Below are positions 1 through 13,697 of a stretch of 37,374 bases of DNA, one piece after another. The stretch comes from a bacterium (GTDB lineage: Bacteria > Patescibacteriota > Saccharimonadia > Saccharimonadales > Saccharimonadaceae). The DNA lies in contig JAJXWT010000008.1 of assembly GCA_021781475.1 (NCBI GenBank), positions 1 through 37,374 of the forward strand, given 5' to 3'. Each line of letters starts with the position of its first letter. The first letter of the stretch is position 1. The notes below the pieces were generated by a model that saw only the letters and a program-made list of their open reading frames with translations, searched no databases and was not told the DNA's origin. The position numbers and the translations under genes are program-made.

Positions 1-585
1 CAGGAAGAAATCGACAACCAGGTGCAGTCGTTTGAGAGGAAGTACTCTGCCAACCCATCCAACCGACTAACTAATGCTCAGGCAGATTTAAGTGAAGCTA
101 TTAAAAGTGGCGATACCGTAAAAGCACGCGCCGCATTCCGCATACTCAGTACATCCGGGGGCGCTGGCATTAGTAAGGCCCGTGAGGCGATTGCTGGTGC
201 GCAAGGTAGTCGCAAGATTAGCGACCTATCTAACGAGGAGCAGAATGTCATGAATGCGCTGAAGAGCGACGTGAACAGCGCGGGGGTTAAATCGAAAGAC
301 AATGTGTTTGCAAGCTGGGCCTACCAAGACAAAACAATGGAAGAGATATCGAAAGATACTAGCACCTATGACAAGCTTAGCGACGCCGAGTTTGCAACAC
401 AAAGCGCGGACAATATTAAAGCAGCCCATACTAGCGGCATACTGACACAAGCTAGGGTCGACGCTCTACGTTCCGGGACGAGCTGGACACAAATGTCAGA
501 AGAGAATAGGAAATACCTCAACGCTAATTTTCCAGTGGCACCCGCACAACAACAACCAGCGCAACAACCGCCACAGACACCATAA
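1..585 (+). CDS. C-terminal part of a hypothetical protein upstream of prgI (5'-truncated by window; frame open from base 1), Ala/Gln/Pro-rich C-terminus; possibly a T4SS component
   Basis: Frame 1 is open from base 1 to TAA at 583-585; tail PAPAQQQPAQQPPQTP; directly upstream of PrgI/VirB4 genes on the same strand. Confidence 0.6.
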   Translation, partial: QEEIDNQVQSFERKYSANPSNRLTNAQADLSEAIKSGDTVKARAAFRILSTSGGAGISKAREAIAGAQGSRKISDLSNEEQNVMNALKSDVNSAGVKSKDNVFASWAYQDKTMEEISKDTSTYDKLSDAEFATQSADNIKAAHTSGILTQARVDALRSGTSWTQMSEENRKYLNANFPVAPAQQQPAQQPPQTP

Positions 586-618
586 ACCAAAACGCTCATG
601 TAAACTGGCATTATCGTT

Positions 619-624
619 TATAAT
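619..624 (+). promoter_or_regulatory. putative -10 element (TATAAT) of the prgI operon
   Basis: TATAAT at 619-624, 11 nt before ATG at 636. Confidence 0.5.
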
Positions 625-635
625 AACTTACAGCC

Positions 636-1703
636 ATGGCAACCTATAAAGTAGCACAAGATGTTGAGGCCGACGACCACTTGCTGGGGCCGTTTACGGC
701 GCGCCAGTTTATTTACCTGATTATTGTGTCGATGGCCGGGCTTTTGGCGTTCTTTTTGGGCAAACTATTTGTGCCGCTTGCAATTATTCCGCTGCCCGTA
801 ATTTTGTTCTTTGGTGTGCTTGCACTGCCACTGCGCAAAGATCAACCCATGGAGGTGTACTTTGCGGCCTTAATTTCGTTTTACCTAAAACCCCGGCGGC
901 GGCTATGGGAGCCCGATGGCCTTACGTCGCTGATTGAAATTATCGCACCGCAAGCAATTGAACAGCAGCGTGTAAAAAGCTTTAGTGGCAGTGAGGCCGA
1001 GAGTCGCCTTGGCTACCTCGCAAGCATTGTTGACACCGAAGGCTGGGCCATCCGCCACGCCGCGGGCGCGCAAGACACTAACACTAGTATGATTAGCGAT
1101 GTGTATAACGACGCCGTGGCAACCGAAGATCTGCTCGACACCAGCAGTAGTGTTGCTCAGGATTTTGACGCGAAACTCTCGGCCGCGACCGAACGACACC
1201 GCAAAGAAATTATGGACCGCATGCGGAACCCAGGTGACTACAGCGTGCCTGGTACACAGGTAACAACCGCCGTGGCCGCCGCACCGCAGCCAGCGGCACC
1301 AAACTATAGTTACCAAGCCCCCGTGCAGGCGCCCGCTGCCGCCAGTGCGCCCCAGCAATACATGACCCAACCGATCGCACCGCAACCACAGGTACAAACA
1401 CAGCCATCGGACCTCCACTTTAACCCGTACCCAACAATCCACCAGACAATAATTCAACCGCTCGCTCCCGCGCCAAGCGCAGCAGCTACCCCGCAGGCGC
1501 CACCCATGGCCGCTACACCCGCACCAGTCCAGCCAACGCCACCAGTTGCAAACCCCGCTGAAAGCACTAGCGAAACTGCGCCATCACCTGATATAATGAG
1601 GCTTGTAAATAATTCCGATTTATCCGTAGAAACCATTGCGCGTGAAGCGCACAGGCTCAAGGGTAAGGACGACAGCGACGAGGTTGTCATATCCTTACGG
1701 TAG
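636..1703 (+). CDS. PrgI-family T4SS-associated membrane protein with long Pro/Gln/Ala-rich C-terminal region
   Basis: N-terminus MATYKVAQDVEADDHLLGPFTARQFIYLIIVSMAGLLAFFLGK...LPLRKDQPMEVYFAALISFYLKPRRRLWEPDG fits the PrgI family (two TM segments, short loop), followed by a low-complexity region. Confidence 0.85.
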   Translation: MATYKVAQDVEADDHLLGPFTARQFIYLIIVSMAGLLAFFLGKLFVPLAIIPLPVILFFGVLALPLRKDQPMEVYFAALISFYLKPRRRLWEPDGLTSLIEIIAPQAIEQQRVKSFSGSEAESRLGYLASIVDTEGWAIRHAAGAQDTNTSMISDVYNDAVATEDLLDTSSSVAQDFDAKLSAATERHRKEIMDRMRNPGDYSVPGTQVTTAVAAAPQPAAPNYSYQAPVQAPAAASAPQQYMTQPIAPQPQVQTQPSDLHFNPYPTIHQTIIQPLAPAPSAAATPQAPPMAATPAPVQPTPPVANPAESTSETAPSPDIMRLVNNSDLSVETIAREAHRLKGKDDSDEVVISLR

Positions 1704-1736
1704 GGGATAGGTAAGTCGGCATAAGGAGTGTGGGGA

Positions 1737-2594
1737 GTGCCGCCAAACAATCAAACGCAAAACCCGGGAATGCAACCTGCCCAGCCCAATCAGTTTAATG
1801 GGCAATTTATGGCTACGCCCCAACAGGCCCCCACAGCCACCCCGCAACCCGCGCAACAAAACCAAACTGCGCCAACGCCAGCTGCCCCGCGCGCCGCAAG
1901 CACACAAAATAGCTTGTTGTTCAGTGAAATTCGCGAAAACATGGTGATTATGCGCGATGGCACATTCCGTGCGGTGATTGCCTGTAAATCGATTAACTTT
2001 GACCTTATGAGTAACCGTGAACGCGAGGGTATTGAACTCAGTTACCAGAACTTTTTAAACGCCCTGTATTTTCCGGTGCAGATATTGGTGCGTTCACAGC
2101 GTGTTGACATTGGTCCGTATATCGACAAGCTAGTGGACCTCCGCCGGGCACAAGACAACATGTTACTTGGCGTACTAATGGACGATTACATTAATTTTAT
2201 TGACGTCTTAAGCCAAGAAGCAAATATTATGGATAAAAGTTTTTTTGTTGTAGTGCCGTATTTTCCAGCTGGTGACATTACTAACGTTGTCGAGCGGGGC
2301 AAGGGCTTTTTGAGCAGCTTTTTCCCAAAACAGGCGGTGTCTGTCACAAAAATTGACAAAGCAACCTACGACAAGGCAAAAGATGAAATCCGCAACCGCG
2401 TTGACGCCGTAGTGAATGGCCTGTCACAAGTTGGGGTCCATGCTGTGCAGCTTACCACCAAAGAGGTTGGCGAACTGTATTATAACGTGTATAACCCCGA
2501 CACTGCCGTGCGCGAACCGCTTGGTGATTTTAGTAACGCCACCAATATGTACGTACAAAAAGGCACGCTAAAACCGGAGACACAAAATGGCTAA
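1737..2594 (+). CDS. TraC/VirB4 N-terminal-domain-like protein without ATPase domain
   Basis: ORF track starts at GTG 1728, but SD-like AAGGAG (1723-1728) suggests in-frame GTG 1737. Core NSLLFSEIRENMVIMRDGTFRAVIACKSINFDLMS...; no Walker A; overlaps the VirB4 CDS by 8 nt. Confidence 0.7.
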   Translation: MPPNNQTQNPGMQPAQPNQFNGQFMATPQQAPTATPQPAQQNQTAPTPAAPRAASTQNSLLFSEIRENMVIMRDGTFRAVIACKSINFDLMSNREREGIELSYQNFLNALYFPVQILVRSQRVDIGPYIDKLVDLRRAQDNMLLGVLMDDYINFIDVLSQEANIMDKSFFVVVPYFPAGDITNVVERGKGFLSSFFPKQAVSVTKIDKATYDKAKDEIRNRVDAVVNGLSQVGVHAVQLTTKEVGELYYNVYNPDTAVREPLGDFSNATNMYVQKGTLKPETQNG

Positions 2595-4422
2595 AAAGCC
2601 CGACCCAATGCAAATTGCCGCCGAACAACGCGAGCGCGAGCAAACCGAAGTCGAACAGGCATTTTTAAAGGGAATGAACACCCTGCGGGATACGATTGCG
2701 CCAAGCAGCCTTGAAATCCACAGTAGTTACTTTCGACTTGGCACCAAGTACGGGCGCACCATGTACGTGTATGGCTACCCGCGCGAGTTATATACCGGAT
2801 GGCTCAGTAGCCTGATTAACATTGACCAGGTGATCGATATTAGCATTCTTGCGTACCCAGTCGATACCCAAGTTGTATTAAACAACCTGCGTAAAAAGGT
2901 CACCCAACTAGAGGCCGACATGCAAATTAATAGCGAAAAAGGCCGCGTGCGTGACCCGGGCCGCGAAGCCGCCCTACAAGACGCCGAAGAACTGCGCGAC
3001 CAGCTACAAGTGGGTGCCGAGCGCTTTTTCCGGTTTGGCCTGTACGTCACCGTGTATGGCGACAGCCTGGACGAACTCAATTTTGTGCAGCATGCTATTG
3101 AAACGATTTTCGGCCAACAGCTAATTTACAGTAAAACCGCCAGCAGCCAGCAAGAACAGGGCCTTAATAGCACTGTGCCGCAAATGAGCGACCAGCTGCA
3201 AATTCGGCGCAACATGAACACTGGCGCCATTAGCACGAGTTTTCCGTTTACGAGCGCCGACCTCACCCAAGACGGTGGCATTTTATACGGCATTAATATG
3301 CACAATAACGGCCTGGTGATATTCGATCGGTTTAGCCTAGAAAACGCGAACATGGTGGTATTTGCAAAATCTGGTGCCGGTAAATCGTTCGCCGTTAAGT
3401 TAGAAGCTTTGCGGAGTATGATGATGGGCAGCGATATTTTGATTATCGACCCTGAAAACGAGTACCAAAAGCTATGCGACGCCGTGGGTGGCAGTTATAT
3501 TCGCCTGAGCCTGAGCAGCGATACCCGCATTAACCCCTTTGACCTGCCAAAGGTGATCGACAAAGAAGATGCCGATGACGCCCTGCGCGCCAACCTCATT
3601 ACCCTACATGGGCTCCTTCGGCTTATGCTAGGTGGGACGCAGCTTGGCGGCCAAGGCCAGCCACTATCAGCCTTAACCCCTGCCGAAGAAGCCGACCTTG
3701 ACCAAGCCTTAATCGATACCTATGCCCGGGCGGGTATTACCAGCGACCCGCTTACCCACAGCTCAACGCCGCCAACTATTAACGAGCTGTATGACACGCT
3801 TTTGCATATGGGTAACACCGGCCCCCAGCTTGCACAGCGCCTCCGTAAATACACTAGTGGTACGTTTGCCGGTATTTTTAGCCAACAAAGCAATATCGAT
3901 ATTAATAACACTATGGTGGTATTTAACATCCGCGACCTCGAAGATGAACTGCGGCCGGTGGCAATGTATATTGTGCTGAACCATATCTGGAACATTACCC
4001 GTAGCGAGCAAAAAAAGCGCATGCTGATTGTCGATGAAGCCTGGGAACTCATGAAATACGACGACAGCGCAAACTTTATGTTTAGCCTGGCTAAGCGTGC
4101 CCGTAAATACGCCCTTGGGCTCACTACAATCACCCAAGATGTCGAAGATTTTATGGGCAGCCGCATGGGCCGCGCCATTGTTGCAAACTCAAGCATGCAG
4201 CTCCTTTTAAAGCAGTCGCCCAGCGCCGTGGATGTATTAGGCGATGTATTTAAGCTCACCGAAGAAGAGCGCAAGCGCTTAACGAACTTTCCTGTGGGGC
4301 AGGGGCTCTTTTTTGCCGGCCAAAACCACGTACATATTCAAGTTATTGCCAGCCAAACTGAAACAGGGTTAATCACTACAACGCCAACCGTAGCGGTACA
4401 GTCGCAGCAACAAGGCCAGTAA
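2587..4422 (+). CDS. virB4: VirB4/TraC-family conjugation ATPase
   Basis: Walker A VVFAKSGAGKSFAVKLEAL, Walker B KRMLIVDEAWELM, VirB4-typical TTITQDVEDFMGSRMGRAIVANSSMQLLLKQ. Confidence 0.93.
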   Translation: MAKKPDPMQIAAEQREREQTEVEQAFLKGMNTLRDTIAPSSLEIHSSYFRLGTKYGRTMYVYGYPRELYTGWLSSLINIDQVIDISILAYPVDTQVVLNNLRKKVTQLEADMQINSEKGRVRDPGREAALQDAEELRDQLQVGAERFFRFGLYVTVYGDSLDELNFVQHAIETIFGQQLIYSKTASSQQEQGLNSTVPQMSDQLQIRRNMNTGAISTSFPFTSADLTQDGGILYGINMHNNGLVIFDRFSLENANMVVFAKSGAGKSFAVKLEALRSMMMGSDILIIDPENEYQKLCDAVGGSYIRLSLSSDTRINPFDLPKVIDKEDADDALRANLITLHGLLRLMLGGTQLGGQGQPLSALTPAEEADLDQALIDTYARAGITSDPLTHSSTPPTINELYDTLLHMGNTGPQLAQRLRKYTSGTFAGIFSQQSNIDINNTMVVFNIRDLEDELRPVAMYIVLNHIWNITRSEQKKRMLIVDEAWELMKYDDSANFMFSLAKRARKYALGLTTITQDVEDFMGSRMGRAIVANSSMQLLLKQSPSAVDVLGDVFKLTEEERKRLTNFPVGQGLFFAGQNHVHIQVIASQTETGLITTTPTVAVQSQQQGQ

Positions 4423-4425
4423 CCC

Positions 4426-7218
4426 ATGGACAACCGCCAACGAAATTACGAACCAGATATTGAACCGGAAACCCGGCCCAATTTACGAGCTCTCCCAGGT
4501 AGGGGTGAGTCTACGCCGGAACGTGGAAATTTGAATGTGGTGAACGACACCTCAAGCGACCTTAAAAACAGGGAGTCTACCGCTCAAGGCTTGCACGCTC
4601 TCCCAGGTGGGGGTGAGTCTACGCCGGAACGTGGAAATTTGAATGTGGTGCGCGCTGGTGAAGCAACGCCGTTCACAAGCAATGTCACCGCACCATCGGT
4701 CGGCGCGGCAGCCGCTACAAATGCAGTCAAAAAACTCCCCTTTATAAAAAAGGCCGGGCCAGTCGGCGGGATTATTGCCTCACTACTTGGCGTATTTATA
4801 TGGTCAGCCTTGTTTTCACCAGCTGTCTTACTGGTTAACCTCAAAGAAACCCTAGTCGGCAAGTTTGATACCCAACAGATAAGCGCCAATACGCGGATGG
4901 AAAAGGTGATGAAAAACAAGCTCGTCAGCTTTTTTGGCAAAGCCGCTTGTAATGTCGCCGAATATACGTGCCGCATATCAACGCCTTCGAATTATATGTT
5001 AAAGCGCATGAATGCAAACGGCATCGAAGCCCTTGATGCAAGCGGCAACCCCATTGCTATCACAACAGACGCGTACCCAAAAGAGGTGCCAGCGCAATAC
5101 CGATTTACGGCATCGGACGGTGGAGTAAAAACCTTCCCCGCGGATCAAGTCCCCACAGAATTTAAAAATAATGCAAGCTTTCGGGCAGCATTTCACGATA
5201 GCTGGAATCCCAAAACTGCCTTTTACGACAAGGCCGACACTGCGTTCAAGCAAATAATGGCGAAATTTGGGTTTGGAAAATCCGATGTTGTCGCGAACGC
5301 CACTGACACCACGACCGCAAAGGAGGAAATTAACGCCGACGTCACGGGGGAGGATGTTGGGGCAAAAGCAGCGACACAAGAGGGCGCAGCGGCCGAAGAA
5401 AGCTTCATAAAAAAGCTTTTTAATGGCACAGTCAGCGATATATTCGATAAAATTGCTCAGTCCACCAAAACAAGCGGCGTGGTTGGGCTCGTTGCGGGTG
5501 GCGTATGTATTGCGGGTGACATACCAGGGCTGGTCGCTACCACCGCTCGGACATATCAAATGGCGCAAATTATAAAACTCGCCATGGTATACCTCGTTGT
5601 TGCCGATGCGATAAAAGCTGGGAACGCCACCCCCGCTGAAGTGGGGGCGCTTGGTGGTATGCTCACCGCTGTCTTAAAAGACAGTAAGGGGAACATTGTG
5701 AGTAATGCTGCAACCGACTCGCAAGGGATGAAGTATGCGTTTGGGTTCCTAAAAGGCGGAAGCACAAAGACAAGTGTAGCGAGCCATAGCCTGTCGTATT
5801 TCCAGCCAGGTGGTAATGTTGTAAAAGCGCTCGGCCCGGTATTAAAGGTGACCCAGAGCAGCGTCGCAAAGGATGCGTGTGCGGTGGCAACAAGCCCTGT
5901 AACTGGCGCGGCACTCGACACAGTCGCCGTGGGGGGGTCGGAATTCCTTGGCATAACACTGGCGATTCAAGGTGCGAACATTGCCCTTGGCTATGCCCTT
6001 GGGTGGGCAATCGGAAAAATTATGCCCCCAATTATTAACTTGGCTGTTTCGGCCATACCTGTTCAGTCAATTATGAAATACTTTATGGGTGACTTTACCC
6101 AGAACCTTGATTCAGAAAGCACTGGGAATGCCTACGCCAGTGGCGCGGCCAATATGATGGCCCTGACCGCAAACGCTGGCGGTAACATGCCAATGACCGT
6201 CAACCAAGCCGTGGCCTACGCTGACCTCGGGCATCAACAAGAGCTCGCCTATGCCCAAGAGGACCGCTTAACCCACAGTCCGTTTGATGTGACTGATCAA
6301 AACACATTCCTTGGCAGTATTGTTGCGCAGCTCGTCCCGTATTATTCAAAAGTTAGCTCGCTGACTGATGTATTTTCTACTGTTGGGAGTGTCTTTACCG
6401 GCTCCCTTAGTAACGCAATGCGCATGTCAGTGGCTGGCGCCTCAAGTGTATCGGCCGGTGACTTCTTTGGCTGTAACGACCCGAACCTCACAAAAGGCAA
6501 TCTGGCAGTTGGGCCTTTTTGCAACGTGTATTATGGTATTCCAACCCAATACCTTGGCAAGAGCCCAGACGATGTATTAAATGATTTAAGCGGCCAAATC
6601 GATCCACAAACCGGTGACCCACTACCAAAATCAGACCTTGCCGCCTGGACCACACTCTGCACTGATGGCTCCGACACACAGGCGAGTAACTGTAAAATTA
6701 CTACTCCACAAGAAGCGGATTACGCCCTATACACCGTTGACCACCGCATACAGGTGAGTATGGATGGCCAAGGGACTGCGAATACCGGCGGCTCGGCAAC
6801 TACCGCTAGCACTGGCAGCCCGCAAAATGGCGCCATGATTGGTGACGTGGGCAAGCAATACCTATCGTGTGCCGCCTGGATTGATCAATTTGTGCTGCCA
6901 ACCTACTTTGGTATACAAAACCCTGGTGGTAATGGTAAAGATGCGGTGCCAAACCTTGGTAAAATGGGCTATACCGTCAACCATACCCCCGCTGTGCACG
7001 CAATTGTGTCGTGGCCAGCCGGCGGGGTGGCAGGGAGCCCGGCCGACGGTACGTATGGTCACGTGGCAATCGTATACCGAGTCAACGCCGACGGGTCGAT
7101 CGAAGTCGAAGAACACAACTACACCTACCCGAACAAATACGATACCCGCCATATTGATGCTAGCGCTGCGAGCCTGTTAATGTATGCGCATACAGAAAGT
7201 AAGTTTAAGGCACCATAA
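4426..7218 (+). CDS. Large multi-pass membrane protein (VirB6/TrbL-like position) with C-terminal CHAP-domain amidase/endopeptidase
   Basis: Hydrophobic segments (e.g. GPVGGIIASLLGVFIWSALFSPAVLLV); C-terminus has a CHAP-like Cys/His pair (LSCAAWIDQF ... YGHVAIVYRVNADGSIEVEEHNY). Confidence 0.75.
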   Translation: MDNRQRNYEPDIEPETRPNLRALPGRGESTPERGNLNVVNDTSSDLKNRESTAQGLHALPGGGESTPERGNLNVVRAGEATPFTSNVTAPSVGAAAATNAVKKLPFIKKAGPVGGIIASLLGVFIWSALFSPAVLLVNLKETLVGKFDTQQISANTRMEKVMKNKLVSFFGKAACNVAEYTCRISTPSNYMLKRMNANGIEALDASGNPIAITTDAYPKEVPAQYRFTASDGGVKTFPADQVPTEFKNNASFRAAFHDSWNPKTAFYDKADTAFKQIMAKFGFGKSDVVANATDTTTAKEEINADVTGEDVGAKAATQEGAAAEESFIKKLFNGTVSDIFDKIAQSTKTSGVVGLVAGGVCIAGDIPGLVATTARTYQMAQIIKLAMVYLVVADAIKAGNATPAEVGALGGMLTAVLKDSKGNIVSNAATDSQGMKYAFGFLKGGSTKTSVASHSLSYFQPGGNVVKALGPVLKVTQSSVAKDACAVATSPVTGAALDTVAVGGSEFLGITLAIQGANIALGYALGWAIGKIMPPIINLAVSAIPVQSIMKYFMGDFTQNLDSESTGNAYASGAANMMALTANAGGNMPMTVNQAVAYADLGHQQELAYAQEDRLTHSPFDVTDQNTFLGSIVAQLVPYYSKVSSLTDVFSTVGSVFTGSLSNAMRMSVAGASSVSAGDFFGCNDPNLTKGNLAVGPFCNVYYGIPTQYLGKSPDDVLNDLSGQIDPQTGDPLPKSDLAAWTTLCTDGSDTQASNCKITTPQEADYALYTVDHRIQVSMDGQGTANTGGSATTASTGSPQNGAMIGDVGKQYLSCAAWIDQFVLPTYFGIQNPGGNGKDAVPNLGKMGYTVNHTPAVHAIVSWPAGGVAGSPADGTYGHVAIVYRVNADGSIEVEEHNYTYPNKYDTRHIDASAASLLMYAHTESKFKAP
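4489..4542 (+). repeat. 54-bp direct repeat, copy 1 (in-frame)
   Basis: GCTCTCCCAGGTAGGGGTGAGTCTACGCCGGAACGTGGAAATTTGAATGTGGTG; recurs at 4597-4650 with one mismatch. Confidence 0.95.
4597..4650 (+). repeat. 54-bp direct repeat, copy 2 (in-frame, offset 108 bp)
   Basis: Identical to 4489-4542 except A->G (GGTAGGGG vs GGTGGGGG). Confidence 0.95.
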
Positions 7219-7222
7219 AACC

Positions 7223-7684
7223 ATGGCCACACGTACAAAAATCGCTATCGGTGTACTGGTCAGCCTGTTACTTATTGGCGCCGGGTGGACTATATGGAGC
7301 GCGTTACACACAAGCAAAACATCGCCCGTAACTACCAAAAATACGCAAGCGACGTATACAAGCCTTGATTTTTATAGTGCTGATATTCCGTTTCAAACCC
7401 GTAGTGCTATCGAGCAATGGCTTACTGCAAACAGTGGTGTGAGTGGCTTAAATAATACCACTGTAACCGTACGAAAAGGTACCTATACAAAAACCTTTAG
7501 CCCTGACGGGTCGCTCTATACGGTACGTTTTTTGGTCGACTTAACCGGCACGCCACATGTCACGTACGCTATACACGTTGATTTAAGCCCCGCTAATCAC
7601 TACGCACCGCTAATTGTGACATGCCCGCCCGCGAGTGAACAAATTGGCAACCCAGCCGACTGTAAGGGGATGACACAGATATGA
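7223..7684 (+). CDS. Membrane-anchored hypothetical protein
   Basis: ORF starts at 7184 but in-frame ATG 7223 avoids overlap with the CHAP gene; N-terminal TM IAIGVLVSLLLIGAGWTIWSAL. Confidence 0.65.
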   Translation: MATRTKIAIGVLVSLLLIGAGWTIWSALHTSKTSPVTTKNTQATYTSLDFYSADIPFQTRSAIEQWLTANSGVSGLNNTTVTVRKGTYTKTFSPDGSLYTVRFLVDLTGTPHVTYAIHVDLSPANHYAPLIVTCPPASEQIGNPADCKGMTQI

Positions 7685-8097
7685 TTCACAGCCGGCGCAT
7701 TATCACTGTTATCGCAATCGTACTCCTTGCCACTGTTATAGGTGTGGTTGGTATTGGCTACGCCTACAATGCGCAGCACGCGACCACCACCACAACCCCA
7801 GTACGCACGGCCGCTGACTATTCGGCACTCTTTACAAAAAAATACCCTTCACTCGTTGGGAGCGATGGGAACCCGATCTTTACAATTGGCGCTGTTAAAA
7901 AATTAGCCGATAATTGGTATAGCGTGACGATTATCAGTAAACAAAATAATGATACACTGCGGGCATTGGTTCTTGATTCGACGCAAAGCACCGATGGTAT
8001 GTCGATTGTACTAGGACCGAGCGTCGCGTTTAACCAGGCAGACGTTCCGAGTGATGTATTCTTGCCAGAAACCGTGTACCAGGAGTTTATTCAGTGA
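7681..8097 (+). CDS. Membrane-anchored hypothetical protein
   Basis: N-terminal TM IITVIAIVLLATVIGVVGIGYAY; ATGA 4-bp overlap with the preceding gene. Confidence 0.65.
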   Translation: MIHSRRIITVIAIVLLATVIGVVGIGYAYNAQHATTTTTPVRTAADYSALFTKKYPSLVGSDGNPIFTIGAVKKLADNWYSVTIISKQNNDTLRALVLDSTQSTDGMSIVLGPSVAFNQADVPSDVFLPETVYQEFIQ

Positions 8098-9380
8098 AAC
8101 GCCTTATAACCACGCTTGTGGTGGTGCCACTACTGGTGTGTATTACACTCGTACAGCCTGCCTATGCAGCAGAAGTAATTGACCCGATGAGCAATGATAT
8201 TATGTTTTACGATCCAACAAGTACCGCCTGTAGTACCACACAAAGCACGCTCAGCGCTGGGCTATTAACCACCGACCTAAAAACGCGTGAACGGACAATT
8301 TTACAATTCTTTACCGGCAAGGGCCTTACCTTAGCCCAAGCATCAGGTTTTGTTGGCAACATGATGCAGGAATCAACCCTTCGGTCAGACATCATACAGG
8401 GTGGCTCAACAGTGTCAAGCAGTTACACTCCTGTTGCTGGGGTAGGTTTTGGCTTAGTCCAATGGACTACAGCTGCAAGACAAGCAGCGCTCGAAAAACT
8501 TGCACAATCTAGCAATCGACCAATTACTGATATGGGGCTGCAACTCGACTATGTATGGCAAGAACTGACCGGACCATATAAAGCAACTCTACAAACCTTA
8601 CTCGCGTACCCCAATGTTACCCCAGTTGATGCCGCAATCATCGTTCACGGCAATACACCGCTTACTAGTAGCGACCCTCGCTTTGCTATCGCACCAACCC
8701 TTGGCTACGAAGCGTCGGGCGATACCGCACAGACGGTGATTGATGTGCGCGGTGGGGTAGCGCAAACGGCTTACGATACCTTTAAGGGCACAATTGCCGA
8801 CGGTACAGGCGTACAGGGGGCATTGAGCAGTAGCGTAACACCACTTAGCACCGGGAATACGTGCAGTGGTTCAAGTAGCGCCGTTGCCTCAACAACCTGT
8901 AGTGTCACGGCGCCAGTGCAAGGCTCCAGTAAATCAGCGAATGCAAATGAACTCACCCAAGCCCAACTCACTGCTATCTACGGAGACCCGACCCCAAGCG
9001 TGATGAAACCAAAAATGGTATCGGTAGACTTTTTAGGCCACAGTGTTATGGTCAACCCAAAGGTGGCGGGGTGTTTGACCGCAGTTGCGAATGAAATAAA
9101 AACCAATAATATTCAGTATACCGTCACCAGTATTGGTGGCTACCGCTACGATGCGGCGACCGGCATAGGACACGTTGGCCTTAGCAGCTACCATGATTAC
9201 GGGGCCGCTGTTGATATTAATGCCGCCGACAACGCGTATAATGGCACCACCCACACAATGCCACAGTCGTATGTTGATGCCTTTTACCACCATGGCTGGA
9301 CGTGGGGCGGGGACTGGACAAAGAACAAAGACTGGATGCATTTTGAATTTAATGGCATAGGGCCTGGAGGGGGCAATTAA
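8094..9380 (+). CDS. Secreted two-domain cell-wall hydrolase: phage-tail-lysozyme-like domain + M15 (VanY/D-Ala-D-Ala carboxypeptidase-like) domain
   Basis: Signal peptide MKRLITTLVVVPLLVCITLVQPAYA; lysozyme-like ILQFFTGKGLTLAQASGFVGNMMQESTLRSD...GFGLVQWTTAARQAAL; M15 motif SSYHDYGAAVDI ... WMHFEF. Confidence 0.83.
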   Translation: MKRLITTLVVVPLLVCITLVQPAYAAEVIDPMSNDIMFYDPTSTACSTTQSTLSAGLLTTDLKTRERTILQFFTGKGLTLAQASGFVGNMMQESTLRSDIIQGGSTVSSSYTPVAGVGFGLVQWTTAARQAALEKLAQSSNRPITDMGLQLDYVWQELTGPYKATLQTLLAYPNVTPVDAAIIVHGNTPLTSSDPRFAIAPTLGYEASGDTAQTVIDVRGGVAQTAYDTFKGTIADGTGVQGALSSSVTPLSTGNTCSGSSSAVASTTCSVTAPVQGSSKSANANELTQAQLTAIYGDPTPSVMKPKMVSVDFLGHSVMVNPKVAGCLTAVANEIKTNNIQYTVTSIGGYRYDAATGIGHVGLSSYHDYGAAVDINAADNAYNGTTHTMPQSYVDAFYHHGWTWGGDWTKNKDWMHFEFNGIGPGGGN

Positions 9381-10783
9381 TGAATCAACCAACACAACCA
9401 CCGAAAAAAATCCTCATCTTTGGTGCCGTGATTATTTTTATTGTCATACCCCTTATATGGGTTGCTGCAAAAAATAGCTTTGTAATCATTTCGGCAAGCG
9501 ACAAATCAGCAACCATCACCCTTACGAGCACCGACAACAGTACAAAAATTACCGCCACTGGCAGTTATGTTGGCATGGTCCCCGCAAAAGACTACACCAT
9601 TAACACCCAAACCGTCACCGCCGCTGCCTCGCAAAGCTTTTCAGCCATGCCATTCCATATTCAGTCTGTTGCTGTTCAATTAAATAAGTCAGTCCAGTCA
9701 GAAGCCGTCTCAAACATTGCCACCGACAACGTCAATGTCGCCACTGGAACAAGTCTTACTTTCGTTGATTCGGCGACCCAATACCTAGAGCGGGTTGATT
9801 CACATAATACCCTGCAACGGATTGGCGCCCCCTATAGCTTTAGCCGCGTGGCATGGAAAGATCAGACGAGCGGTATTGCGATTGGCACCGATCCCGCAAA
9901 TAATGTCGGGGTATTTGCGCTCCATGGCACCACTATCGCGGCACTGCCACTGCCAGAGGTAGTCTCAGACAGTAATAGCCTGTCTGTTGCCTATGCCGGT
10001 AATAATACCTATTACTTTACCGAAAACAATAAACTCTATAGCTATAGCGCTAGTGACCCAACATTTACCCGTGTCTCATTTATACCAAGTGGTTATGTGC
10101 TTAGTTCAGCATCAGGGGTACGGGCGCTCTTATATAACGCCAGTTCAAGCGTCGGCTCAAATTACGCCGTTACATTACTAAATACCAAAAATGGCAGCAC
10201 CAACAAAACCACTGCGCCCCTTATTGAAAACCCAAATTACACCTTTAGCTCATCGTGGTCACCAGACGGCACAAAGGTAATTATTAGTGCGTCTGGGAGT
10301 AGCACCGTCTACAACCAATCGCTACAAAAAATCTCAACCATTGCAGGGAACGCAAGCAATAGCCCAGCGTGGCTGAATAATTCATCGGTTGTATATGCGG
10401 CCCAAAACCGACTATGGCAATACTCGTTTGACACAACCGTTTCGAACGCAATCGCTTACTTGCCAAAATACGCTACCGCAGACACTATCTATACCGACCA
10501 TTCAGGGCAGTATTTATATTTCACGGTTATTACTAATGGTCAAATATCGTTATATCGAGCAGCGCTCCATAACCAGCCAATTAATATATCCGCCCAAAAA
10601 CTGGGCGAATCGAACACGCAGCAAACATCCAATGGTTGCGCAATGAATTACCTAAACTTCACCTCACTTACGATGATTGCAGACAGCCCATCAGACAATA
10701 CAAGCTGTATTGCGGCTATTCAGGATTACCTGTCAATTATTACCGTTCCCGAGACAACGCCTGTGCAAGTTTTTAACCCTTAA
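9380..10783 (+). CDS. Membrane-anchored beta-propeller (TolB/PD40-like) protein
   Basis: N-terminal TM ILIFGAVIIFIVIPLIWVA; propeller-like blades including SSWSPDGTKVIISA. Confidence 0.65.
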   Translation: MNQPTQPPKKILIFGAVIIFIVIPLIWVAAKNSFVIISASDKSATITLTSTDNSTKITATGSYVGMVPAKDYTINTQTVTAAASQSFSAMPFHIQSVAVQLNKSVQSEAVSNIATDNVNVATGTSLTFVDSATQYLERVDSHNTLQRIGAPYSFSRVAWKDQTSGIAIGTDPANNVGVFALHGTTIAALPLPEVVSDSNSLSVAYAGNNTYYFTENNKLYSYSASDPTFTRVSFIPSGYVLSSASGVRALLYNASSSVGSNYAVTLLNTKNGSTNKTTAPLIENPNYTFSSSWSPDGTKVIISASGSSTVYNQSLQKISTIAGNASNSPAWLNNSSVVYAAQNRLWQYSFDTTVSNAIAYLPKYATADTIYTDHSGQYLYFTVITNGQISLYRAALHNQPINISAQKLGESNTQQTSNGCAMNYLNFTSLTMIADSPSDNTSCIAAIQDYLSIITVPETTPVQVFNP

Positions 10784-10786
10784 CCC

Positions 10787-11887
10787 CTAGCTTTTCAGTG
10801 GCATAATAATGTGGGTGTAGTTGGCGCCTTTTTGCGCGGTCGTGAGCACGCAAGGGCTTAGCTTACCGCTAAACCGAAAGGTAATTGTGTCGCCGTCAAT
10901 CACGTTAAGCGCGTCGGCAATGTAGCGGGAATTAAGTGTAATTTGGCCACTCGCCGATATTTCGGCGCTTGCGGTCGACGTGTTTTCGCCCAGTTCCGAC
11001 GCAATCGAATGAATACTCAGTTCTTGCTTGTCTTTATCGGCATTGAGCGTCACCGAACCACCTGATTCGCGAGCAAATAGGCTGGCGATTTTAACCGTGC
11101 GCGCAAAATCATCGGCCTTAAGTGCCACGATTGTTTCCGATTCCCTTGGAATCAGCTGGCGATAGTCCGGGAAATTGCCATCAATCAGCCGGCTGGTAAT
11201 TTCGGCTTCACCAATCCGAAAACGCACCTGTGTATCGTCAAACAACACCTCGACTTCATCAATAGAATCGGTAATTGTGCGCAGCACTTCTTGCAGGCTT
11301 GGTGTAGGAACAATGGCGGCAATTTCACTTTTTGTGTTCATTAGCTGGCGCTCAGCAAGCCGGTACCCATCGGTTGCCGCCAGGTACAGGGCGCCGTCAA
11401 TCGAATGCCAAAATACGCCGGTAAGCACTGGGCGAGTTGAATCACTACTACTCGTAATCACCGTCTGGTTTAACGCCTGTTTAAGGTCAACCGAGGCAAT
11501 GCTATAGGTCACGGCTTGGGTTTCATCTATCGCTGGGAGCTCGGGGAACTCTTCGGCATCCATACCATTTACGACCGACGTGTAATTACCAGAACTGATT
11601 GTCATATGGGTTGTTTTAACCTGTAGGTTCACGGTCCCTTTTGGCAAAGAGCTCACAAATTCCGCCAGTAAGCGTGCTGGTAGGGTAATGCTGCCTTGTT
11701 TAAGCACCTTGGCGCCAATGTAATAAGTTTCGGCGATTTCAAGGTTGGTGGCGGCAACAAGCAGGCGGTTACCTTCGGTGCGGAGTAATATATTTGAAAG
11801 GACAGGCAGGCCTGCTTTACTGGTGGCAATCCGGGCAACGGCGCTGAGTGCGCGGGAAAGGTTTTCTTGGGTGACGCTGAGTTCCAT
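10787..11887 (-). CDS. dnaN: DNA polymerase III beta subunit (sliding clamp)
   Basis: MELSVTQENLSRALSAVARIATSKAGLPVLSNILLRTEGNRLLVAATNLEIAE...; C-terminus YTHIIMPLKS; adjacent to dnaA in the same direction. Confidence 0.97.
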   Translation of the reverse strand: MELSVTQENLSRALSAVARIATSKAGLPVLSNILLRTEGNRLLVAATNLEIAETYYIGAKVLKQGSITLPARLLAEFVSSLPKGTVNLQVKTTHMTISSGNYTSVVNGMDAEEFPELPAIDETQAVTYSIASVDLKQALNQTVITSSSDSTRPVLTGVFWHSIDGALYLAATDGYRLAERQLMNTKSEIAAIVPTPSLQEVLRTITDSIDEVEVLFDDTQVRFRIGEAEITSRLIDGNFPDYRQLIPRESETIVALKADDFARTVKIASLFARESGGSVTLNADKDKQELSIHSIASELGENTSTASAEISASGQITLNSRYIADALNVIDGDTITFRFSGKLSPCVLTTAQKGANYTHIIMPLKS

Positions 11888-11900
11888 ACTGTATTACTCC

Positions 11901-11949
11901 TTTTTTAATAAATTTATTTCGTCTTAGTAATAATAGGTACTGTGGATAA
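11901..11949 (-). other. oriC: Putative origin unwinding module: DnaA box + DnaA-trios + AT-rich tract
   Basis: Minus strand reads TTATCCACA-GTAC-CTATTATTACTA-AGACG-AAATAAATTTATTAAAAAA; + strand TAGTAATAATAG at 11925-11936, box at 11941-11949, AT tract 11901-11919. Confidence 0.75.
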
Positions 11950-12153
11950 TGGGTATAACTGGCGTAGTAGCGGGGGTAGATTGACATTTTCTAGAGTGGA
12001 AAAGCCTGTGTGCCAATTGCGAGTAACCTGTGTGGATATAGGCCATTGTGCACATGCCTTAGCCCAAATACCCATACTTGGGTGCTGTGCTGTGGACAAA
12101 CGAACACATTTTTTACTGGGTACTATGCACTGGTTGTTCACATATTGTACACA
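11941..12153. promoter_or_regulatory. DnaA-box cluster between dnaN and dnaA
   Basis: TGTGGATAA 11941-11949 (perfect, minus); TGTGGATAT 12031-12039; TGTGGACAA 12091-12099; TTGTTCACA 12134-12142; TTGTACACA 12145-12153 (one mismatch each). Confidence 0.7.
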
Positions 12154-12157
12154 GGTA

Positions 12158-13540
12158 CTAAGCATATAGTTTCTCCCTAATTTCGGCAACTTGTTCGCGA
12201 ATCATAAAATCAAGCTTAATGGCCTTTTCGATTTTTTCGATGGAATGGATTGCAGTGGTGTGATCTTTGCGGCCAAGTTCTTGTGATATCTTAGGGAATG
12301 ACATGTGGAGTTCGCTGCGGAGTAGGTACATGGCAATTTGGCGGGGAACAACAATATGCTTGTCGCGTTTGGCGCCGCAGATTTCTTTTGGTTCAATACT
12401 AAAATGCTTGGCAGTTTTGTCGATAATTTGTTTGGCGGTAACATGCTGGGGGCGGGCGTGCTTAATGTTCCCCAGTAGCCCTTCGGCAGTTGTGACATCG
12501 GCAGGTACGCCGCGCATTTCGGCGTAGGCAAGTAATTGGTTGAGGGCGCCTTCAAGTTCACGCACGTTTGTTTTAATGTTTTTTGCGAGGTATTCCACTG
12601 TGTCTTGATCAAGGCTCACGCCGCTCATGTTGGCTTTGGTCTGTACGATGGCGCAGCGGGTTTCAAAGTCAGGCATTTGAATATCAATTGCCATGCCCCA
12701 CTCCAAACGGCTGCGTAGGCGCTCGGTAAGGGTGGGGATGCTCCGTGGTGGTTTGTCGCTTGTAATAATGATTTGTTTGTTTGCCTGGTGGAGGGCGTTA
12801 AAGGTGTGAAAAAACTCTTCTTGGGTTTTTTCTTTGCCAGCAATAAACTGCATATCGTCAACGATTAACACGTCGACATTGCGGTATTTGTCGCTAAAGC
12901 CTTTCTTTTTAAAGCGAATGTAATCTAAAAATTCGTTCACAAATGTTTCAGAGCTAATATAAAGGACACGGGCAGAGGCATCGCGCCGTAGTACTTCGTG
13001 GCCAACTGCTTGGGCAAGGTGGGTTTTACCTAAACCAACGCCACCGTATAAAAACAGTGGGTTATATTTTTGGCCTGGATTGGCGGCCACAGCTTGGGCG
13101 GCGGCAAAGGCAAGGTCGTTACTGCCACCAACAATAAAGCTGTCAAACGTGTACCGCGGGTTTAGGCTCGTACTGGCCGTGCTGCGCGTAGGGGTTGCTC
13201 GGCCGTTTCCAAGCAGGTCGTCGGCGCGCTGGGAACGATTGTCTTGCTCGGATTCACCAGTGGTTTCGCGGGTCACAATATGTTTTTTAGCGCCTTTTAC
13301 CACATAGGTAACGTGCGGGTTGGTAATGCCGTTGTGGGCCAAAATCTCCTTTACGGTGTCGTCAAACTTGACTTCGAATTGCCGAATCGCAAAAACGTTT
13401 GGAACCGCCACGGTTAGGTGGCTATCGTGGTGCTCAATAAGTTCGGTGTTTTTAAACCATGTGGTAAAGTTGCCGTGGCTAACGGTTAGTTCAATTTCTC
13501 CTAAAACACTCTGCCATAAGGCTGCTGCAGTTGTGTTCAT
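12158..13540 (-). CDS. dnaA: Chromosomal replication initiator protein DnaA
   Basis: Start set at MNTTAAALWQSVLGEIEL (ATG 13540, preceded by GAGGGG) rather than ORF start 13663; Walker A GGVGLGKTHLAQAVGHE, VLIVDDMQFIAGKEKTQEEFFHTFNAL, DNA-binding GRKDHTTAIHSIEKI. Confidence 0.97.
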   Translation of the reverse strand: MNTTAAALWQSVLGEIELTVSHGNFTTWFKNTELIEHHDSHLTVAVPNVFAIRQFEVKFDDTVKEILAHNGITNPHVTYVVKGAKKHIVTRETTGESEQDNRSQRADDLLGNGRATPTRSTASTSLNPRYTFDSFIVGGSNDLAFAAAQAVAANPGQKYNPLFLYGGVGLGKTHLAQAVGHEVLRRDASARVLYISSETFVNEFLDYIRFKKKGFSDKYRNVDVLIVDDMQFIAGKEKTQEEFFHTFNALHQANKQIIITSDKPPRSIPTLTERLRSRLEWGMAIDIQMPDFETRCAIVQTKANMSGVSLDQDTVEYLAKNIKTNVRELEGALNQLLAYAEMRGVPADVTTAEGLLGNIKHARPQHVTAKQIIDKTAKHFSIEPKEICGAKRDKHIVVPRQIAMYLLRSELHMSFPKISQELGRKDHTTAIHSIEKIEKAIKLDFMIREQVAEIREKLYA

Positions 13541-13571
13541 AACCCCTCGTACAACAATTAATACTCCACTT

Positions 13572-13577
13572 AGTATA
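13572..13577 (-). promoter_or_regulatory. putative dnaA -10 (TATACT on minus strand)
   Basis: AGTATA on + strand; expected -35 position (13595-13600) overlaps DnaA-like box TTTTCCACA 13592-13600. Confidence 0.45.
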
Positions 13578-13591
13578 GCGGAGTAGCAGAG

Positions 13592-13697
13592 TTTTCCACA
13601 ACCCATAAGGTGGTGTGAAAAAATCCACGTGGGCAAGTGACGATGGGGGTGCCAGTTATCCACAGTTCTGTGCTACCCCTGTTATTTTTGTGGATAA
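13592..13697. promoter_or_regulatory. DnaA-box cluster between dnaA and rpmH
   Basis: TTTTCCACA 13592-13600; TTATCCACA 13656-13664 (perfect, +); TGTGGATAA 13689-13697 (perfect, -). Confidence 0.75.

Follow-up and report, generated by a model that had tools for sequence, protein, structure and literature searches.

A probable basal unwinding system in the dnaA–dnaN spacer of a Saccharibacteria genome, and covariation of its DnaA-trios with an initiator residue

The general mode by which DnaA opens a chromosome origin is still debated, one view invoking a cis oligomer on DnaA-trios and the other single-strand recruitment. In Bacillus subtilis, the basal unwinding system (BUS) of incC comprises DnaA-boxes 6/7, a short spacer and DnaA-trios, and BUS elements have been predicted in 1755 of 2070 bacterial origins under a rule that allows a box–trio spacer of 0–16 nt (PMC8287927). 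According to the B. subtilis BUS structure (8btg), two protomers hold each trio; the first G is contacted by R202 and E228, the middle A through its amine by N187, and the third T by N196. The middle A can be replaced both in vitro and in vivo by C, which also bears an amine, whereas G and T substitute poorly, and no trio-contacting DnaA residue is universally conserved (PMC10721633). The DUE of Thermotoga maritima (DnaA-trio, eTrio) likewise carries TAG/TAA trinucleotides by a DnaA box, and these assist unwinding there. The main text of the BUS survey makes no mention of CPR, candidate phyla or Saccharibacteria (PMC8287927). In the open literature, we found no paper joining DnaA-trios with candidate phyla.

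The DNA analysed here, a stretch of 37,374 nucleotides referred to below as the window, corresponds to contig C8 of an 809 kb genome assembled in 30 contigs and 97% complete. The named relatives of its DnaA are Candidatus Saccharibacteria/Patescibacteria, in agreement with an earlier reading made from the sequence alone, which had taken the genome to be of the CPR type. Saccharibacteria are tiny, host-dependent bacteria. The window carries, both on the minus strand, dnaN for the DNA polymerase III beta clamp (10787–11887; three Pfam beta-clamp domains) and dnaA (12158–13663; 501 aa from a GTG; Pfam Bac_DnaA, Bac_DnaA_C and DnaA_N). The dnaA frame runs about 46 codons (13525–13663) 5′ of the point where homology with most relatives starts; since this homology begins mostly from about residue 47, the GTG may lie too far upstream and the true start may be internal.

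Direct reading of the minus strand from 11958 to 11897, within the dnaA–dnaN gap, gives a pair of boxes, the spacer GTAC, a run of triplets, an AT-rich tract and the dnaN Shine–Dalgarno sequence. The distal member of the tandem is a weak DnaA box, TTATACCCA (11950–11958, two mismatches), which abuts the trio-proximal box TTATCCACA (11941–11949), free of mismatches and conserved in relatives. The 4-nt spacer (11937–11940), mostly NNNC in relatives, is followed by DnaA-trios 1–4, CTA TTA TTA CTA (11925–11936), which read 3′-GAT AAT AAT GAT-5′ on the trio strand, and by trios 5–6, AGA CGA (11919–11924). The whole array on the trio strand is thus 5′-TCG TCT TAG TAA TAA TAG-3′, with four middle A and then two middle C, and lies 4 nt from the perfect box and 13 nt from the upstream one. 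Beyond it, the AT-rich tract AATAAATTTATTAAAAAA (11901–11918), a probable region of melting and helicase entry, is contiguous with the Shine–Dalgarno core GGAG (11897–11900), nine bases before the dnaN ATG (11887–11885). Further boxes in the upstream spacer are ATATCCACA (12031–12039) and TTGTCCACA (12091–12099), each on the minus strand with one mismatch, and two weak boxes in reverse orientation (12134–12153, plus strand; TGTGTACAA and TGTGAACAA in dnaA-strand letters) at the dnaA-proximal end, where reverse boxes are enriched across relatives. When both strands of the window were searched for a perfect box accompanied, within 16 nt, by three or more YTA trios, a single site emerged, the two raw counts being one array at two spacers.

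For assignment to the BUS we required a box with at most two mismatches to TTATCCACA and an uninterrupted run of three or more trios whose middle base on the trio strand is A; a second adjacent co-oriented box, the commonest arrangement, was optional. The locus has all of these within the search rules of the survey, and its box-nearest trio is 3′-GAT-5′, as most often reported (PMC8287927). Like the B. subtilis BUS, it is sited in the dnaA–dnaN spacer, where a short gap separates two adjacent boxes of one orientation from six trios that are in phase and lie on the corresponding strand, with AT-rich DNA beyond; unlike it, two of the six trios have a middle C, the distal box is weak, and the AT tract extends for only some 18 bp before the dnaN Shine–Dalgarno sequence. 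The sequence-only reading had given the perfect box, spacer, trios and AT tract at 11901–11949 with correct coordinates and letters, and their order, orientation, spacing and direction toward dnaN fit the published BUS rules (PMC8287927). Its four contiguous trios stand, but AGACG, which it had set apart from them as a gap, is better taken as the beginning of in-phase trios 5 and 6 (AGA, CGA), making six in total; it also overlooked the second, weaker box abutting the perfect one. The proposed running of the AT tract into the Shine–Dalgarno sequence is present in the letters, the two meeting at 11897–11906.

On all DNA-sequence criteria the module belongs to the BUS, and 11897–11958 very probably forms the core at which the chromosome origin unwinds. 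By analogy with B. subtilis, DnaA at the abutting box pair (11941–11958) would nucleate an ATP-DnaA oligomer that extends onto the adjoining trios, successive protomers would each capture one trinucleotide of the strand read above, and the capture would part the duplex toward the AT-rich tract and dnaN.

The conservation of the module was assessed in relatives. The dnaA–dnaN adjacency was kept in all of the first 30 loci (L001–L030), and these together with 80 further named loci yielded 99 distinct spacers. A box with at most three mismatches, exactly 4 nt and YTA (CTA/TTA) occurred in 98 of the 99, whereas shuffling them under a dinucleotide model gave about 22; in an enlarged set, it occurred in 135 of the 142 distinct Saccharibacteria spacers. 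The fixed 4-nt spacer was adopted because a Pelliciari-type rule with a free spacer of 0–16 nt proved too permissive (89/99 real, about 20/99 shuffled). Anchoring at the rightmost candidate misplaced several arrays and was abandoned; for the set of 135, the anchor was the lowest-mismatch box 90–125 nt from dnaN.

As the anchor itself forces part of the 98/99 figure, positions outside the box–spacer–YTA anchor weigh more, and these were conserved as well. Across 61 dereplicated sequences, the fraction of A at the third base of triplets 2–6 was 0.77, compared with a mean of 0.41 and a maximum of 0.48 in 2000 within-segment shuffles; for triplets 4–6 alone it was 0.70 vs. 0.40. The 3-nt phase held through six triplets and was gone at the seventh. 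Reading frames across the array were open in only 20–32 of the 61 sequences, which excludes a coding origin of the phase. An abutting upstream box (at most two mismatches) was found at offset −9 in 59% of relatives, with no other offset between −14 and −6 exceeding 11%. The triplet phasing beside the box, whose loss in close relatives had been named as grounds for rejecting the module, is therefore strongly kept. From trio 1 to the Shine–Dalgarno core the median distance in relatives was 34 nt, so the compactness seen in the window is usual for the order, and the AT tract averaged 79% AT vs. 60% in the upstream spacer. A separate element, CTGTTA/CTGTTG, was observed in 41% of Saccharibacteria spacers (L002–L343) vs. 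1.4% of shuffles at a fixed position, 23–24 nt 5′ of the trio-proximal box; its equivalent in the window (about 11967–11973) has diverged.

The second check proposed from the sequence alone concerned GC skew. Within the window, in a genome that is a 30-contig draft, the cumulative skew was lowest at 11260, and the box lies about 0.7 kb away. In 20-kb stretches sampled from two single-contig congeners, the skew changed sign at dnaA, near 521 kb in G004 and near 507 kb in G007, being negative on one side and positive on the other. Taken together, these data do not bear out the objection that the skew minimum lies elsewhere.

The module was also sought in the wider CPR, using 110 genomes with one locus each, mostly from different families; dnaN adjoined dnaA in 89 of them. 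A box followed by 3–6 nt and a trio-array score of at least 3 was present in 37% of the CPR spacers vs. 0.6% of shuffled ones (63% vs. 5% at a score of at least 1.5), and some loci (L169, L170 and L183) bore six or seven unbroken YTA trios. These results extend the unwinding system to the CPR at large and support its great age, and the module offers a practical origin marker for draft CPR genomes.

The trio-contacting residues of DnaA were then compared, with 8btg as the solved structure closest to the window DnaA; the residues in that structure follow the same B. subtilis numbering as the BUS study, which is used throughout. The window DnaA keeps N187, I193, K222, E223, E228 and the arginine finger R264, and differs from the B. 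subtilis protein by I190 to Leu, N196 to Lys and R202 to Ser, so that the contacts made by R202 and N196 are missing, a point that weighs against the unwinding reading. In 142 Saccharibacteria, residue 196 was Lys in 138 and residue 202 was Ser or Ala in 137, while residue 187 varied (Asn 51, Lys 42, Gln 36, Ser 10). Other CPR had Asn187 in 24 of 29 sequences and Lys or Arg at 202 in all 29; among 20 further outgroup CPR, which mostly have clear arrays, the corresponding counts were 18 and 17. Given that the states of residues 187 and 202 differ between Saccharibacteria and other CPR, the base-reading pocket appears to have been remodelled in this order. Because C replaces A in B. subtilis and trios 5–6 of the window have a middle C, all six of its trios would be readable by the chemistry of the middle base.

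The clade-specific change of the pocket appears to be matched by a change in the DNA. In the 135 anchored Saccharibacteria spacers, we scored trios 2–6 for their middle base on the trio strand. A or C made up 84% of the middle bases with Asn187, 45% with Lys187, 52% with Gln187 and 70% with Ser187, and all five middles were A/C in 22 of 51 Asn187 genomes compared with 2 of 84 others. Lys187 genomes had G at 59 and C at 10 of 190 middle positions; in Asn187 genomes the counts were 14 and 49 of 255. The window follows the same pattern. Its triplets CTA TTA TTA CTA AGA CGA have the trio middles A A A A C C, all six A/C, and its DnaA has Asn187, whereas the eleven congeners with DnaA have ten Lys and one Ser. 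Its nearest relatives read CTA TAA TCA TCA CAA CCA (L007) and CTA TAA TAA GCA TCA CGA (L014); compared with L014, the middle bases differ in trios 2 to 5 and the third bases are all identical.

Could shared ancestry, not coevolution, have produced this link? The states of residue 187 cluster on the tree, and a lineage-wide shift of base use could mimic the association. Independent N/K pairs numbered two on well-supported branches and seven on all branches, their averages lying in the predicted direction; the supported pairs being too few for a sign test, phylogenetic regression was used on a DnaA tree from whose alignment the contact columns had been left out. With full Brownian covariance (lambda 1), the link was still significant, with a slope of 0.34 and p 2e-5 for N vs. 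K and p 3e-5 for N vs. all, values that are approximate because a bounded fraction was regressed. When the first or the third base was scored for A/C as a control, no significant N vs. K link to residue 187 emerged at lambda 1. Among 188 states of variable ATPase-domain residues, 187N and 187K ranked first and second at lambda 1 and 0.5, the idea of residue 187, prompted by the data and a paper, having predated this unbiased scan. In addition, the A/C vs. G/T class is independent of G+C content, and the window, with Asn in a Lys genus, tracks its own residue and not its kin. We therefore regard common descent as the less probable source of the link, though the most serious of the alternatives considered here.

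The covariation suggests that residue 187 reads the chemistry of the middle base of each trio, Asn probably pairing with the amine-bearing A/C, while in the Lys and Gln lineages the middles may have drifted or shifted to G/T. On balance, we lean towards a changed trio code in Saccharibacteria through initiator–origin coevolution, in which Asn187 takes A/C, Lys187 and Gln187 tolerate or prefer G/T, and recognition has partly moved to the third base, the most conserved one, with residue 196 fixed as Lys and position 202 no longer basic. The covariation of residue 187 with the middle base is the part that is new beyond the initial observation, and no report of middle-base variation tied to this residue was found in the open literature. 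The interest of the locus rests chiefly on this match between pocket and DNA. Such residue–base covariation is independent evidence that the base-capture contact of B. subtilis operates in living lineages; it comes from a deep branch in which we found no tested origin, and it makes the trio code swappable and testable.

A different opening mode was also considered, in which box-bound DnaA binds back on the TTATT/TAG-rich single strand, as in the ssDUE recruitment of E. coli and Thermotoga, and the proximal trios only aid melting. The further boxes in both orientations in the upstream spacer would suit such a mode, and in T. maritima the annotated box-proximal trio is dispensable, the essential TAG repeat lying farther from the box (PMC10316083). 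In the Saccharibacteria, on the contrary, conservation peaks at the triplets next to the box, whose 4-nt distance and phase are fixed, as expected of a continuous cis oligomer, and we consider recruitment of this kind improbable. Less credible still is a dnaN promoter, with the conserved CTATTATTA-like tract as a −10 element and the triplets incidental. TATTAT or TATAAT does lie at the same place in many relatives, and dnaN starts about 45 nt downstream. Nevertheless, the top-conserved bases are the A of each third position as far as the sixth triplet, unlike a −10 pattern, the would-be invariant last T is T in only 48%, and the box–triplet distance is fixed at 4 nt. Some CPR relatives carry six or seven pure YTA repeats, and a promoter would not predict covariation with residue 187. 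Finally, although YTA is easily found in the AT-rich spacer near dnaN, as the shuffled hits show, the near-universal occurrence and the conservation beyond the anchor make a chance origin of the triplets negligible, and it was ruled out by the shuffle comparisons in both Saccharibacteria and the wider CPR.

Several observations concern the replication genes and the surroundings of the module. In the window's genome (G000), the helicase loader DciA was not found, and a search for DnaC/DnaI/IstB-like proteins gave DnaA itself as the sole match above the cut-off. Seven near-complete CPR genomes (G340, G163, G384, G268, G040, G056 and G188), of which G340 and G163 are one contig each, had no Bac_DnaA match; masked runs of N, as seen in G007, are a possible cause, otherwise these would be CPR lacking DnaA. 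To the left of dnaN (1–10783), the genes of the window lie on the plus strand and would thus be head-on with the left-going fork if the origin is at 11.9 kb. Two of these neighbours may be cell-wall hydrolases, one encoding a CHAP-domain protein (4426–7218) and the other a protein with phage-tail-lysozyme and M15-peptidase domains (8094–9380).
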